A stretch of DNA of 34,501 nucleotides from Anaerolineae bacterium (lineage in GTDB: Bacteria > Chloroflexota > Anaerolineae > Aggregatilineales > Phototrophicaceae): contig JAUZRW010000248.1 of assembly GCA_030950085.1 (NCBI GenBank), positions 1 to 34,501 of the forward strand. The letters run 5' to 3'. Under the pieces are notes generated by a model, which did not search any database, was not told the origin of the DNA, and saw nothing but the letters and a program-made list of their open reading frames with translations. The translations under genes and the position numbers were made by a program. Positions 13,475 through 30,031 of the stretch are shown piece after piece; positions within the stretch are counted from its first letter, which is position 1, and the number at the start of each line of letters is the position of its first letter.

Positions 13475-14673
13475 ATACCAATGTTCCCGGTATCAATATC
13501 ACGATAGGCGGCTTGTTAGCGCGTACAGCCTTGATTGTGCTGGTTATCTTGTGGACTTTACCGACTTTTGGCTTGTTTGTCAGTTCGCTACGCGATAAAG
13601 ACCAACTCATTGTTTCTGGCTGGTGGTCTGCTCTGAGTACATCGCAAGAAAGCGAGCAAGGTCGTACTGCGACATCAGATGTCGAAGTTGAGCGTGATGG
13701 CACATATGTCATTGCAGGCAATATCTTTGGCGAGAATACGTCTAAATCTGTCGATACATATGGTGGCGGCTTCCTGCCAGATACCGATGATGTCGAGTAT
13801 GCCGAAAATGAGCAAGTTGGCATCCGCGATTATCAAGCAGGAGAAACGGTTGACTTAGGCGATGGTGTAACGTTCACACTCAATACAGATGGTTCGTATG
13901 AATGGGTCTCCCCTATTCCGCTTGAAGAAGGGCGCGGCAAACGCTTCTTTGTTATCACAACCATTCCACCCACCTTCTCACTGCAAAACTACCGAGAAGT
14001 GCTAGATTCTGAAGGTTTCGGTCAGGCATTCATCAACACATTCACCGTGACAATTCCGGCGACAATCATCCCGATTGCAGTCGCGGCTTTTGCAGCTTAT
14101 GCCTTCTCGTGGATGGAATTCCCCGGACGACAACTTTTATTTGTTATCGTTATCGGTTTGCTGGTTGTCCCACTACAAATGTCGCTGATTCCTTTGCTGC
14201 GGCTGTATAATTCCATTGGAGAATTTTTTGGCGTTGCAGCGAAATCTTATCCCGGCATCTGGTTAGCCCATACCGGATTTGGCTTGCCATTAGCGATTTA
14301 CCTGCTACGGAATTACATTGGCGGTCTCCCGCGTGAAATCATCGAGTCGGCAAAAATTGATGGAGCATCGCACTTTGATATTTTTGTGCGCCTCATTCTG
14401 CCCTTGTCGATTCCAGCATTAGCCTCCTTTGCCATTTTCCAATTCTTGTGGGTCTGGAATGACTTATTGGTTGCCTTGGTCTTCCTTGGCAAAACAGATG
14501 ACCAAATTGTCATGACTTCCAAATTGCGTGAATTACTCGGTTCTCGTGGTGCCAACTGGGAAATCTTGACCAGTAGTGCCTTTATCTCGATTCTAGTCCC
14601 CTTATTGGTTTTCTTTAGCTTGCAACGTTACTTTGTACGCGGCTTGCTGGCAGGGTCAGTCAAGGGCGGTTAG
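13471..14673 (+). CDS. aglG: ABC sugar transporter permease, AglG-like (MalG type) with extracytoplasmic insert
   Basis: 400 residues. Helix 1 lies at about 15-37. A soluble insert of roughly 110 residues (40-150) follows, starting RDKDQLIVSGWWSAL and containing VERDGTYVIAGNIFG. Then comes the binding-protein-dependent permease domain with its EAA loop ESAKIDGASHFDIFVRLILP and a C-terminal RYFVRGLLAGSVKGG. The insert between helix 1 and the permease domain, with the SGWW motif, is the hallmark of AglG and explains the length (MalG-type proteins are usually about 280). AGGAGG lies about 9 bases before the ATG. It is the last gene of the operon and is followed by a terminator. Confidence 0.88.
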   Translation: MNTNVPGINITIGGLLARTALIVLVILWTLPTFGLFVSSLRDKDQLIVSGWWSALSTSQESEQGRTATSDVEVERDGTYVIAGNIFGENTSKSVDTYGGGFLPDTDDVEYAENEQVGIRDYQAGETVDLGDGVTFTLNTDGSYEWVSPIPLEEGRGKRFFVITTIPPTFSLQNYREVLDSEGFGQAFINTFTVTIPATIIPIAVAAFAAYAFSWMEFPGRQLLFVIVIGLLVVPLQMSLIPLLRLYNSIGEFFGVAAKSYPGIWLAHTGFGLPLAIYLLRNYIGGLPREIIESAKIDGASHFDIFVRLILPLSIPALASFAIFQFLWVWNDLLVALVFLGKTDDQIVMTSKLRELLGSRGANWEILTSSAFISILVPLLVFFSLQRYFVRGLLAGSVKGG

Positions 14674-17259: not shown

Positions 17260-17345
17260 AAGCCCCTTTCGGGGTTCATCGCGCCACAAAATTGCAAAGT
17301 AAGACCGATGTTAGGAGGTTATCAGTGATAGTTTGTCAAACAAGT
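17260..17345 (-). repeat. Dispersed ~90-bp repeat, copy A (in the leader of the FAH gene)
   Basis: On the minus strand this 86-base stretch runs from ACTTGTTTGACAAACTAT to CCCCGAAAGGGGCTT. It aligns along its whole length with 29941-30031 (about 85% identical by eye, one 4-base and one 1-base gap). Fixed blocks are ACAAACTAT, GATAAC, TCCTAACA, GTCTTA, TTGCAATTTTGTG and CCCCGAAAGGGGCTT; the last is a GNRA-capped mini-hairpin. It ends about 20 bases before the FAH start codon, so it would be part of that gene's promoter or leader. A TTGACA inside it could serve as a -35 box. Confidence 0.75.
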
Positions 17346-17452
17346 AAAGCACAAAGAATACTCGTCATTGTGCCAGTAAATGCTTCTCACAACCACGAAC
17401 CATTAATATCCACTATTCGCCACCGTGTCGCGTTCAGACAAAATGACAGCTA

Positions 17453-24835: not shown

Positions 24836-24961
24836 ACCCTTAAAATCACAAAAAACGTAGGGGCAGCCGAAAATAGGCGTATATTTTCATCCACCACCCC
24901 TAGAATTATGAATTTCGGGTACAATAGGCGCATTAAATCTTGTGCTGGAAAAGGGTTGATG

Positions 24962-26566
24962 ATGGCTTGGTATACGAATGCGATTTTTTACCAGATTTAT
25001 TTACGGGCATTTCGTGATTCTGATGGCAATGGGCATGGTGATTTTGCAGGTCTGCGCGAAAAAGCCGAATATTTGAAGTGGCTCGGCATTGATTGTGTGT
25101 GGTTGATGCCGATTTACCCCTCGCCGCTCAATGATGATGGCTACGATATTGCCAGTTTCTATAGCATTCATCATGATTTTGGTCTCTTAGAAGATTTTCG
25201 CATGACTGTTGACGAATTGCATCGACACGGTATCCGCCTCATTTGTGATTTAGTCGTTAATCACACCTCCGATGAACACCCATGGTTTATTGAAGCACGG
25301 CGTTCCAAAGACTCGCCCATGCGCGATTTTTACGTATGGAGTGATACCGATGATAAATACAACGAGACTCGTATCATCTTCCTCGATACTGAAGAATCAA
25401 ATTGGGCATATGACGAAGAAAGTCAACAATATTATTGGCATCGTTTTTATAGCAGTCAGCCCGATTTGAACTATGACAACCTAGCCGTCCAAGATGAAAT
25501 GCTCAATATCATCAAATTTTGGATGGATTTAGGCATTGATGGCTTTCGTGTCGATGCTGTGCCATATTTATTTGAGCGTGAGGGGACAAATTGCGAAAAT
25601 CTGCCGGAAACACATGCTTATCTCAAAAAAATGCGGCAGTTTGTGGATGAGAATTATCCTGATTCGATGTTTTTGGGAGAAGCTAATCAGTGGGCAAAAG
25701 ACCTACTGCCCTACTTTGGCGATGACACAGGCGACGAATTTCATTTGTGCTTTCATTTTCCAATCATGCCGCGTCTGTATATGGCACTCGCTAAAAAAGA
25801 CCGTAGCAGTGTTGTTGATGTGCTGGCAGACACGCCGCCGATTCCTGAAAATGCACAATGGGCGACATTCCTCCGCAATCATGATGAACTGACGCTCGAA
25901 ATGGTCACAGAAGAAGAGCGCCGATTCATGTGGGATTATTACTCACCGGACCCCAATCAACGGATTAATCTGGGGATTCGCCGTCGTTTAGCGCCTCTGA
26001 TGGGCAATGACCGCCGCAAAATCGAAGTCATGAACTCAATGCTGTTTACGCTACCCGGAACCCCTGTCTTGTATTATGGCGATGAGATTGGCATGGGCGA
26101 TAATATCCAGCTTTTTGACCGTAACGGGGTACGAACTCCGATGCAGTGGGATGATAGCCATAACGCCGGATTCAGTAGTGCAGCAACAGATTCGCTGTAT
26201 GCCCCACCGATTAGCGACTCCGAATATGGCTATCACACGGTCAATGTGGCGGCAAAACGCGCCGATAAAAATTCGATGCTCTACACGATTCGTCAGATGA
26301 TAAGCCGTCGCAAAACAATGGATTTTGTTGCCAAAGCCGAGTTGGTCTGGTTATCGGATTTGCCGAATCATTTGCTCTGTTTCTGGCGTGAATCGGACAA
26401 TCAGAAGTTACTCGCGCTGCATAACCTCAGTGATGAGGCAGTGACTATCGACTTGCCGAAAAACGTAGAATCTTATTCTGACGCGCTGTGGACAGGTAAG
26501 CCTGTCGAAAATAGCACAATCACTCTAGCGCCCTATGGTTATCGCTGGCTGCTACCTATTTCATAA
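24962..26566 (+). CDS. treS: Trehalose synthase (maltose alpha-D-glucosyltransferase, GH13)
   Basis: 534 residues from the ATG at 24962 (AAAAGGG about 6 bases upstream; the adjacent ATG at 24959 is also possible). The order of motifs matches TreS: WYTNAIFYQIYLRAF, DGYDIASFYSIHHDFG, VVNHTSDEHPWF, RDFYVWSDT, and the catalytic nucleophile D198 in GFRVDAVPYL followed by FEREGTNCENLPETHA. The acid/base is E240 (LGEANQW), the stabiliser is D308 (RNHDELTLEMV), and IRRRLAPLMGNDRRKIE and RTPMQWD-x4-NAGFS complete the set. All three acids are present. It converts maltose and trehalose into each other in the cytoplasm. No maltokinase domain or gene is attached. The enzyme would process disaccharide imported by the AglEFG-like system, but it is 10 kb away under its own control region. 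Confidence 0.93.
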   Translation: MAWYTNAIFYQIYLRAFRDSDGNGHGDFAGLREKAEYLKWLGIDCVWLMPIYPSPLNDDGYDIASFYSIHHDFGLLEDFRMTVDELHRHGIRLICDLVVNHTSDEHPWFIEARRSKDSPMRDFYVWSDTDDKYNETRIIFLDTEESNWAYDEESQQYYWHRFYSSQPDLNYDNLAVQDEMLNIIKFWMDLGIDGFRVDAVPYLFEREGTNCENLPETHAYLKKMRQFVDENYPDSMFLGEANQWAKDLLPYFGDDTGDEFHLCFHFPIMPRLYMALAKKDRSSVVDVLADTPPIPENAQWATFLRNHDELTLEMVTEEERRFMWDYYSPDPNQRINLGIRRRLAPLMGNDRRKIEVMNSMLFTLPGTPVLYYGDEIGMGDNIQLFDRNGVRTPMQWDDSHNAGFSSAATDSLYAPPISDSEYGYHTVNVAAKRADKNSMLYTIRQMISRRKTMDFVAKAELVWLSDLPNHLLCFWRESDNQKLLALHNLSDEAVTIDLPKNVESYSDALWTGKPVENSTITLAPYGYRWLLPIS

Positions 26567-26591
26567 GATAATTAGATAATTGACTATCCGC

Positions 26592-26647
26592 CTTTCAAGA
26601 AAAAGCGTAACACGGAGAATCAGAGACTCAGAGGTATTTTTGAACTT
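26592..26647 (+). repeat. Left arm of the inverted repeat flanking the Rid gene
   Basis: Begins CTTTCAAGAAAAAGCGTAAC, continues with CGGAGAATCAGAG and CTCAGAG, and ends with TTTTTGAACTT. The same blocks in the same order occur on the opposite strand at 27256-27320, with a 7-9-base insertion there. The arm lies between treS and the Rid gene, in a 148-base gap with no gene. Confidence 0.8.
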
Positions 26648-26714
26648 GACTCTCTGTGTTCTCGGTGTCCTCTGTGGTTCAATTTATAACTTCTCATGAA
26701 TGGGTGAATTTACG

Positions 26715-27167
26715 TTATTTCACTTCGGCAATCATCTCGATTTCAACTGCAAAATTGAAAGGCACAGTGAGACCAATAGCACTACGAGCATGTAAGCCAG
26801 CATCACCAAACACTTCACGCACCAAATCACTACAGCCATGAATGACACCCGGCGTATCGTCAAAGTCCGGCGCAACATTGACCATGCCGAACACTTTCAC
26901 GATGCGCGTTACATTATCGAGACTACCTGCTACATTTTTAATCGCCTGAAAACAATTCAGCGCACATAATTTTGCAGCCTCATAACCTTCTTCAACGGTC
27001 AAATCCGCCCCAATTTTGCCCTTAATCGTTTTATCGCCCCAAATTGGCACACAGCCCGATGTGAAAACCAGATTGCCTGTTCGCGCTGCCAAGACAAATT
27101 TGCCGTTATCCAAATTTATGGTCTCCAGTGTGTAACCCATTGCTTGCAACTTTGCTTCGTAAGACAT
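26715..27167 (-). CDS. RidA/YjgF-family protein (reactive enamine/imine deaminase)
   Basis: 150 residues from the ATG at 27167 (AGGAG with 5 bases spacing; the ATG at 27170 is adjacent). The chorismate-mutase-like fold of RidA is recognisable: GNLVFTSGCVPIWG, DLTVEEGYEAAKLCALNCFQAIKNVAGSLDNVTRIVKVFGMVN, and the C-terminal HARSAIGLTVPFNFAVEIEMIAEV with the conserved active-site arginine (HARSAIG). At 150 residues it is longer than the ~130-residue RidA core, like the COG0251 subgroup with an added N-terminal helix. Members hydrolyse imines made by PLP enzymes or assist pyrimidine degradation. It is divergent from an M20 amidohydrolase, so nitrogen-compound breakdown is plausible. Unusually, the gene is enclosed by inverted repeats of about 60 bases. 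Confidence 0.88.
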   Translation of the reverse strand: MSYEAKLQAMGYTLETINLDNGKFVLAARTGNLVFTSGCVPIWGDKTIKGKIGADLTVEEGYEAAKLCALNCFQAIKNVAGSLDNVTRIVKVFGMVNVAPDFDDTPGVIHGCSDLVREVFGDAGLHARSAIGLTVPFNFAVEIEMIAEVK

Positions 27168-27255
27168 CATCGCTCCTTAAAGTGCGCTTCAGTAAAATTT
27201 TCACTTTGGAGAGTATAGCGATTCCAGCATGAACTACAAAATGACAAAGAATACC

Positions 27256-27320
27256 AAGATTCAAAAACATCTCTGCGCCTCTGATTCTCCGCGTCTCTGC
27301 GTTACGCTTTTTCTTGAAAG
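27256..27320 (-). repeat. Right arm of the inverted repeat flanking the Rid gene
   Basis: Reads on the minus strand as CTTTCAAGAAAAAGCGTAAC, then GCAGAGACG, CGGAGAATCAGAG, GCGCAGAG and TTTTTGAATCTT. The 20-base outer end is identical to the left arm at 26592. It lies 81 bases before the M20 gene start, so it may also carry part of that gene's promoter region. Confidence 0.8.
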
Positions 27321-27400
27321 ATGAACCAATATCAGTTGGGCAAAAACTCATCTCCTGTGTAAAATCTCAGCACTATAGATACACAAGAGGATTTTTTATC

Positions 27401-28639
27401 ATGACAGAACAGTTACGAATCAACAGCCAACGGTTGTGGGATAGCATCATGGAAATGGCGAAAATTGGTGCGACAGCAAATGGTGGCAGTCATCGCTTGA
27501 CTTTAAGCGACGAAGATAAGCAAGGACGTGATTTGTTCGCCGAATGGTGTACCGCAGCCGGATGTACGATTACCGTTGACCGTCTCGGCAATATGTTTGC
27601 CCGTCGTCGCGGCAAAGATAATTCACGCCCCCCTGTAGCAATGGGTAGCCATCTCGATACACAACCCTATGGTGGAAAATTTGACGGTGTTTTTGGAGTC
27701 CTCGCCGGATTAGAGGTCGTTCGTACCCTTAATGAGCATCAAATTGAAACCGATGCACCACTTGAGATTGTCAACTGGACAAACGAAGAAGGGGCTAGAT
27801 TCGCGCCGTCTATGCTGGCATCGGGTGTTTTTGCTGGACATTTCGACCTTGAGTTTGCCCTGAGCCGTATCGCAACGGATGGTGCAGAATTCGCCGCCGA
27901 ATTAGAGCGTATCGGTTATGCCGGTGATGTCATCTGTGGCAATCATCCATTTACTGCCTTCATTGAATGTCATATTGAACAGGGTCCCATTCTTGAACAA
28001 CAAGGAAAGTCTGTCGGTGTTGTCACACATGCACAAGGGTTTCGCTGGTACGATATTTCCTTAAGTGGACAAGCAGCACATACAGGGTCTACGCCGATGG
28101 TCGGACGACGCAATGCCCTCTTAGGCGCAGCGCATATTATCCACGCAGTCGATGAGATTGCCCAAGAATATGCGCCGGATGCACGCGCTACTGTCGGCAG
28201 CCAATTTCAGGTGACACCGGGTTCGCGCAATATTATCCCCGGCAAAGTGGATTTTACAGTCGATTTTCGCCATCCTGTCGCGGAAACAATCGCCGCCATG
28301 GATTCGGCGCTGCGCGAAGTCTGCCAGCAAGTCGCATATGATATCGGTCTCGACCTGAGTTTAGAGCAGATTTCATATACGCCACCCACACCATTTGACA
28401 AAAAATGTGTCGCAGCTGTCCAGCAGGCTTGTGACCTAACAGGCGTGAGTCATCAGCAAATTTTATCGGGTGCCGGACATGATGCCTGTTATATTGCCCA
28501 TGTATCGCCCACCAGCATGATTTTTGTTCCCTGCAAAGATGGCATCAGTCATAATGAGGCTGAAAGTGTCAAACAAGAAGATTTAGAGGCAGGTTGTAAT
28601 GTTCTCTTACACGCAGTTCTCGAATTAGCACAGGCATAG
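27401..28639 (+). CDS. M20-family amidohydrolase (N-carbamoyl-L-amino-acid hydrolase / allantoate amidohydrolase type)
   Basis: 412 residues, the normal family length, from the ATG at 27401 (AGAGG about 11 bases upstream); 29 in-frame codons upstream are rejected because they run through the inverted repeat. Two-metal site: H84 and D86 (GSHLDT), D95 (KFDGVFG), E129-E130 (NEEGARF), H191 (IECHIEQGP), and the late H in CKDGISHNEAE. HTGSTPMVGRRNAL and GSRNIIPGKVDFTVDFRH mark the dimerisation domain. It releases an amino acid by cleaving an N-carbamoyl or ureido group. Substrate is not fixed by sequence: N-carbamoyl amino acids, beta-ureidopropionate and allantoate are all possible. The divergent Rid protein fits a pyrimidine or purine nitrogen route. 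Confidence 0.9.
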   Translation: MTEQLRINSQRLWDSIMEMAKIGATANGGSHRLTLSDEDKQGRDLFAEWCTAAGCTITVDRLGNMFARRRGKDNSRPPVAMGSHLDTQPYGGKFDGVFGVLAGLEVVRTLNEHQIETDAPLEIVNWTNEEGARFAPSMLASGVFAGHFDLEFALSRIATDGAEFAAELERIGYAGDVICGNHPFTAFIECHIEQGPILEQQGKSVGVVTHAQGFRWYDISLSGQAAHTGSTPMVGRRNALLGAAHIIHAVDEIAQEYAPDARATVGSQFQVTPGSRNIIPGKVDFTVDFRHPVAETIAAMDSALREVCQQVAYDIGLDLSLEQISYTPPTPFDKKCVAAVQQACDLTGVSHQQILSGAGHDACYIAHVSPTSMIFVPCKDGISHNEAESVKQEDLEAGCNVLLHAVLELAQA

Positions 28640-29916: not shown

Positions 29917-29940
29917 TGAAACCGCTAATTTGTCCGAAAA

Positions 29941-30031
29941 ACTTGTTTAACAAACTATTTGCGATAACGTCCTAACACTCGTCTTATATTGCAATTTTGT
30001 GTGAGGCGCGGTGAAACCCCGAAAGGGGCTT
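29941..30031 (+). repeat. Dispersed ~90-bp repeat, copy B
   Basis: The longest intact copy: ACTTGTTTAACAAACTAT at the left end, GATAAC, TCCTAACA, TTGCAATTTTGTGTGAGG in the middle, and CCCCGAAAGGGGCTT at the right end. It aligns over its full length with 17260-17345 on the opposite strand and shares both outer blocks with 1100-1251. It lies 19 bases beyond the stop of acs, reading toward it, so here it is not the leader of any gene. Confidence 0.8.

Follow-up and report, generated by a model that had tools for sequence, protein, structure and literature searches.

Two facing copies of a dispersed miniature element on either side of a Rid-family gene in an Anaerolineae genome

The Rid gene and its facing arms

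The window, i.e., the whole stretch of 34,501 nucleotides that was analyzed, carries a gene of the Rid/YjgF family for a protein of 151 amino acids on the minus strand at positions 26715-27170 (PF14588, E 2.3e-19; PF01042, E 5.4e-7). Its left neighbour is an alpha-amylase-family gene (24908-26566, plus strand; PF00128, E 2.3e-96) and its right neighbour an M20-family peptidase/amidohydrolase gene (27401-28639, plus strand, in a frame that runs from 27314; PF01546, E 5.6e-29). The 20-base stretch CTTTCAAGAAAAAGCGTAAC stands at 26592-26611 on the plus strand and its reverse complement at 27301-27320, each occurring once in the window; by estimate, chance would produce an inverted 20-mer pair in 34.5 kb with a frequency of about 5e-4. 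A repeat search of the window placed this pair within inverted arms of 43 nt with 86% complementarity (26592-26634 and 27278-27320) and returned a second register, 8 nt off, of 35 nt (26610-26644 and 27260-27294; 86%). The two registers exist because the left copy lacks one 8-nt unit, as seen in the alignment. Rid is the sole gene between the arms, and its stop codon adjoins the approximate end of the left copy.

An earlier note on this DNA had described inverted arms around a lone Rid gene, with further blocks in matching order on opposite strands. These observations were borne out, the blocks being 8-nt units of which the left copy lacks one. The arms that the note had drawn at 26592-26647 and 27256-27320 do exist, but they were drawn too narrowly, each being the left half of a longer element; the 20-base stretch, which had been taken for the outer end, is the same in both arms but lies within that element, the true ends being further out. 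The left element (copy 1) extends on the plus strand over 26580-26713 (profile match 26575-26717, nhmmer E 4.5e-34), and the right element (copy 2), in opposite orientation on the minus strand, over 27192-27332 (profile match 27227-27356, nhmmer E 1.4e-28), where both E values come from a profile built without the two copies and searched against 80 sampled stretches plus the window. Both copies are worn. The outer tips of copy 1 have decayed and its ends are approximate, whereas in copy 2 the right half is badly worn, the outer tips have decayed as well and 27192 is a provisional position for the inner end. Neither the 8-mers flanking copy 1 (TTAGATAA and GTTATTTC) nor those flanking copy 2 (CCCAACTG and TGAAGCGC) retain a target duplication, and for this reason the insertion of the two window copies is deduced from the family to which they belong.

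Three further dispersed repeats were seen in the window. BLAST against the 80 sampled stretches gave 72 matches for the one at 29930-30030 (GTGAGGCGCGGTGAAACCCCGAAAGGGGCT...), and 33 and 18 for those at 17270-17360 and 1095-1190, respectively; positions 17285-17345 and 29941-30001 form an inverted repeat of 61 nt (82%).

A family of miniature elements with 8-bp target duplications

The genome to which the window belongs (G000) comprises 5.09 Mb in 266 contigs. A search with 116 bases around the left arm gave 41 matches in it, with 40 of 210 first-look candidates scored. Aligned copies follow a common plan, in which a left half of units such as ACGCAGAG is followed by a middle TTTTTGAACTTGAA and a right half of units such as CTCTGTGT; as seen in aligned copies and their flanks, the right half closes with GGTTCAA, after which the outer ends follow. 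The body consists of runs of 8-9-nt units of the CACAGAG/CTCTGTG type, and the total length is 135-145 bp in the six copies with at least six of eight duplicated bases. At one locus (L078, about 13946-14159) the body of a copy includes tandem TTTCACCC units, as if bodies grew or shrank in 8-nt steps.

A 33-row profile (some sampled copies being among the rows) was run on 80 stretches with a combined length of 1,202,332 bp (1.20 Mb) and found 77 copies at E<=1e-3, nearly all of them intergenic. Sixty of these stretches (803,013 bp) were picked by contig number alone and held 45 copies, numbers which did not change when the window copies were left out of the profile. The other 20 stretches were taken from long contigs, which in 13 cases had given earlier family matches, and were denser (32 copies in 0.40 Mb vs 45 in 0.80 Mb). 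The density is about one copy per 16 kb, which extrapolates from the sample to a genome total of about 290-330 copies. In a Markov-1 randomized version of the first 20 stretches the profile found no match. Only one of 70 copies (E<=1e-5) was centred inside an open reading frame of at least 100 amino acids, such frames, called by a simple longest-ORF scheme and not by a gene finder, making up 87% of the bases.

The better-preserved copies have one end of the form GTATTTATTCA (GTATTTATTCAxC) and another which, reversed, reads GTAACWGTTCACC; in 15 anchorable copies the right side is conserved up to the terminal TAC and no further. When the sequences next to the 16 copies with both ends were compared, flank identity peaked at a length of 8 (0.50 vs a null value of 0.27) and was at most 0.37 at the other lengths from 3 to 11. 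For the 15 copies whose flanks are complete, the 8-bp flanks matched at 63 of 120 bases where 35 were expected, a count reached in none of 100,000 permutations. The duplication varies from copy to copy, with 6-8 matching bases in 6 of 16 and 0-4 in the remainder. A paired-end scan that took no account of the body yielded 401 end pairs, most of them due to chance, among which four had an exact 8-bp duplication and another four matched at 7 of 8 bases; half of these eight elements were already in the set of 16. Since well-kept copies combine paired ends with a target duplication of exactly 8 bp, the repeat is a MITE: short, non-coding, of high copy number, and with terminal inverted repeats and an 8-bp target duplication.

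Similar ends were also found around other bodies in this genome. Three of the four elements with an exact duplication (L080, 2405-2547; L069, 6760-6893; L037, 3448-3590) and one with 7 of 8 duplicated bases (L131, 5574-5706) have MITE-like ends and a near-equal length of 133-143 bp, and enclose other bodies. The body at L080 and L037 is of the type CACGAAG plus TAGGGACTGG, the two being clearly related to each other, and that at L069 and L131 is of the type TAGGGACAGG, so that, counting the CACAGAG type, three body types occur with similar ends. Total length in elements with seven or eight of eight duplicated bases is 133-145 bp.

A reading of the arms as functional elements, i.e., hairpin terminators or regulatory elements around Rid, was considered together with the placement and folding of the family. 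Copy 1, which stands between converging genes, has a predicted fold of -26.5 kcal/mol, and over 59 sampled copies the mean folding z-score was mildly negative (-0.78), with 10 copies below -2. The z-score of copy 1 itself (-0.88) is not convincingly better than that of shuffled sequence, however, that of copy 2 is worse (+1.70), and 17 of the 59 sampled copies score above 0. Nor do the copies significantly prefer convergent gaps: the gene context of 62 copies with two neighbours (30 co-directional, 17 divergent, 15 convergent) does not differ significantly from the background (233, 127 and 71 of 431; p 0.32 by chi-square over all contexts). Rfam gave no match to the arms, its one weak match (E 0.6) falling within the amylase gene. 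Folding z-scores, gene context and the Rfam result together led to the rejection of a terminator or RNA function, and functional arms are considered highly unlikely.

Position of the Rid gene in relatives and the cassette question

Of the 61 genomes compared, including the genome's own, 10 had matches to the Rid protein at E<=0.001; outside the own genome, more than 70% identity was reached only in G009 (74%) and G008 (72%), where the orthologues stand in a cluster together with an M19 peptidase, an amidohydrolase, a short-chain dehydrogenase and a GntR/FCD-type regulator, joined by an HpcH aldolase in G009. In both relatives Rid comes after the regulator. The own genome keeps the M19 peptidase, the amidohydrolase and the regulator of this cluster on contig C131 (70%, 67% and 65% identity to G009, respectively), and there a DHDPS-family gene comes after the regulator, where Rid would be. 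The closest relative found of the M20-family neighbour of Rid was in G016 (67% identity), and no Rid match was present among the open reading frames of the 19 kb around that gene. The gap beside the DHDPS-family gene (L210, 8604-8806) contains, by eye, seeming relics of two dispersed repeats; the letters GTGAGGCGCGGTGAAACCCCGAAAGGGGCT also stand after the regulator gene on C131.

Regarding an unchanged position of Rid in relatives, which the earlier note had named as a point against its cassette, the result is the reverse, the place differing in the two relatives with a close orthologue. Given the other position in G008 and G009, a relocation of Rid between genera is probable; nothing ties this move to the two MITE copies, and movement of Rid by some route may be compatible with the data. 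The one-gene non-autonomous cassette that the note had proposed is a different matter. Such a composite unit, in which the facing copies would jointly have moved Rid here and the duplications would then have decayed, draws on the different cluster in G008 and G009 and on the DHDPS-family gene at the place of Rid on C131, as well as on precedents in the literature: integrons of Acinetobacter with MITEs on their flanks have been described (PMC10969869), and IS66 elements are described as able to carry passenger genes (PMC12888890). Against it, the window copies are not sisters. Their cores are 82% identical, each of them is closer to copies elsewhere (89%), and their mutual similarity ranks are 17th and 14th of 32, although the pair is somewhat closer than the average pair (82% vs a mean of 76%, 80th percentile). 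No outer target duplication above shuffled flanks was present at the whole unit or at five other facing pairs (0 of 6), where old ones could have decayed. Profile searches of the Rid regions of the relatives and of C131:6001-26000 gave no match to the repeat at E<=10. The 60 relatives searched for Rid included no genome of the same genus in which an empty site could have been seen.

The frequency of facing pairs also counts against a cassette. In the sampled stretches, two facing pairs were 300-1500 bp apart where 1.15 would be expected under random placement in intergenic gaps (P 0.32), and close pairs of any orientation at the same spacing numbered seven vs 4.6 expected (P 0.16). An early match-centred set, biased by its construction, had shown 7 of 12 distinct pairs less than 3 kb apart to be facing, and an enlarged, still biased set 6 of 15 close pairs. 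The idea of an excess of facing pairs was dropped on the figure of two in seven (300-1500 bp) in stretches chosen regardless of pairs. With copies that are not sisters, no outer duplication and facing pairs at about chance frequency, the cassette proposal finds no support and a joint transposition of Rid by its flanking copies is very unlikely.

Repeat-mediated rearrangement, in which homologous recombination between dispersed copies would have placed Rid and left one copy at each junction, is likewise improbable, if somewhat better placed. The non-conserved position of Rid, the density of the repeats and the seeming relics of two dispersed repeats in the gap after the regulator on C131 agree with it. 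No junction could be reconstructed from the genomes compared, however, none of which is of the same genus; the repeats occupy many intergenic gaps, so that their presence at a junction proves little; and the profile finds no copy on C131:6001-26000.

The earlier note had also offered a plainer alternative, in which both arms belong to a common dispersed repeat and stand beside the gene by accident, and it is this which the data support, the repeat being the MITE described above. Very probably, therefore, the arms are two separately inserted and worn MITE copies which face each other by coincidence, with Rid an ordinary resident gene; the unit as a whole is most likely no mobile cassette. Duplications and much of the tips would later have been lost from the two copies, and Rid would be a resident that stands elsewhere in two further genera of the family. 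That difference of place is not predicted by residence alone and counts against this explanation to that extent. A false lead, the one-gene metabolic cassette, is thereby removed, and dense MITEs are seen to mimic one easily.

Probable mover, body sequences and relation to known elements

A transposase frame of the IS66 type (PF03050) is present on contig C228 of this genome and a fragment on C131. The start of the C228 transposase and the upstream sequence GTAACTGCTCAGGGGTATTG recur at contig ends; 25 such loci were examined and 24 passed the similarity filter, and at all 24 differing DNA joins GTAACTGCTCAGGGGTATTG at GTAAC. The high-copy element at these contig ends has the tip GTAACTGCTCA and a start which resembles that of the C228 IS66 transposase; it is probably of IS66 type, to judge from 26-39 residues and a 20-base tip in common with the C228 element. 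At the 24 loci (L135, L136, L138-L159) the contigs end within the first codons of the high-copy element, which breaks the assembly.

The MITE end GTAACWGTTCA is close to GTAACTGCTCA, a likeness that extends over about the first 11 bases and was drawn with one IS end. Among 20 MITE elements with both ends, eight have an end that matches GTAACTGCTCA in at least nine of 11 positions and 12 do not; 0.5% of the GTA-starting 11-mers in the sample reach this level, and the motif by which ends were picked favours such matches. A terminal repeat in common with the autonomous IS66 element over 20-30 bp was not found, the likeness covering about 11 bases of one IS end; as MITE and IS ends differ beyond those bases, the resident IS66-type element may not be the actual partner. 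In the MITE, one end is of the GTAA type in the better copies, the other end begins GTAT, and the duplications are 8 bp. IS66 elements are described as having 8-bp direct repeats and ends that start with GTAA (PMC11946415, PMC12888890), and GTAAC ends are also given for IS66 in PMC12888890. By these sequence features, the mover of the MITE would be a transposase acting in trans, most likely of IS66 type, that recognizes the tips and inserts the element, with the CACAGAG/CTCTGTG-type body as passenger sequence. A tyrosine transposase (REP/RAYT) was also considered as mover; the genome has a single Y1_Tnp match (C18:8399-8722), and this candidate was set aside, as duplications of 8 bp would suggest a DDE enzyme.

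The body has a wider distribution. Consensus matches at E<=0.001 were obtained in 20 of the 61 genomes, the own one included; the matches listed outside the own genome, of which at most 14 were scored in any one genome, all stop short of the outermost 16 bases at both ends. The exact 29-base body pattern GAACCACAGAGRACACAGAGRACACAGAG was found in at least 114 stretches of a genome contig collection, where chance would yield an estimated 7e-6 matches. The 80 stretches listed fall in Cyanobacteria, Chloroflexota, Pseudomonadota, Acidobacteriota, Myxococcota, Planctomycetota, Verrucomicrobiota, Lentisphaerota, Gemmatimonadota, Fibrobacterota, Bipolaricaulota and KSB1, labels taken in part from record titles, with two looked up. 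Among the matches found (119 in 114 loci), 43 lie in open reading frames of at least 120 amino acids, frames which cover 85% of the bases; a facing partner within 150 bases occurs downstream in 54 of 108 matches and upstream in eight. At several betaproteobacterial loci the CACAGAG-body palindrome runs into a different end, ...CCCAAATCTTGAACC. Eighteen core palindromes of other genomes had no target duplication above the null apart from a weak 2-base excess (0.36 vs 0.25).

An exact 20-base core was present in one of 301 genomes of the phylum, which was the own one, and a permuted control in none of the 301. This result counts against the core being everywhere, with a pattern that is insensitive, since it matched only two places even in the own genome. 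A looser 20-base pattern occurred in seven stretches of viral contigs. Plasmids were rejected as carriers, a looser search of 72,556 records giving two records with short core matches only. No description of the core turned up in a search of openly licensed papers, where its letters matched only papers that, among those listed, were unrelated by title; this does not prove that none exists. The MITE family was not encountered in the searches made; it has IS66-like tips and, which is unusual, interchangeable bodies. It is conceivable, though doubtful, that pan-bacterial small hairpin repeats of 8-9-nt CACAGAG-type units, having no ends of their own, spread inside the ends of local miniature transposons, the arms at Rid then being two everyday copies; the body in distant phyla may reflect one spreading family or repeated convergence. 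The exact 29-base body in distant phyla, together with different bodies within similar ends, may matter more than the cassette question, and raises the testable question of how bodies pass from one phylum to another and how they are swapped among ends.

Among known systems, REP elements and the GTAG- and CGTC-tagged palindromes are described as small palindromic repeats of several phyla (PMC3733652), in both of which respects they are like the CACAGAG body, for which the comparison was made; some of the alternative bodies are of the TAGGGAC... type. Unlike them, the CACAGAG-body element is longer and has an 8-bp target duplication. By eye, no GTAG or CGTC tag was noticed on this body, and neither CACAGAG nor CTCTGTG appears in the main text of PMC3733652. 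The short dispersed repeats of cyanobacteria (Elhai et al. 2008, via PMC4390886) are, by title, very small mobile repeated elements, and were likened to the MITE by description and not by sequence. With IS66 the MITE shares the 8-bp duplications and, in its better copies, a GTAA-type end; it differs in having no transposase, in a likeness to the resident element of about 11 bases and in its other end, GTAT. MITEAba12 (PMC6382973) is reportedly one of the bacterial MITEs. These elements, as described in PMC10969869, are like the present family in being short, non-coding and intergenic, with paired ends, target duplications and high copy number. Unlike them, the family described here has similar ends and 8-bp duplications that enclose different bodies at near-equal total length, and one of its body types also occurs in other phyla.
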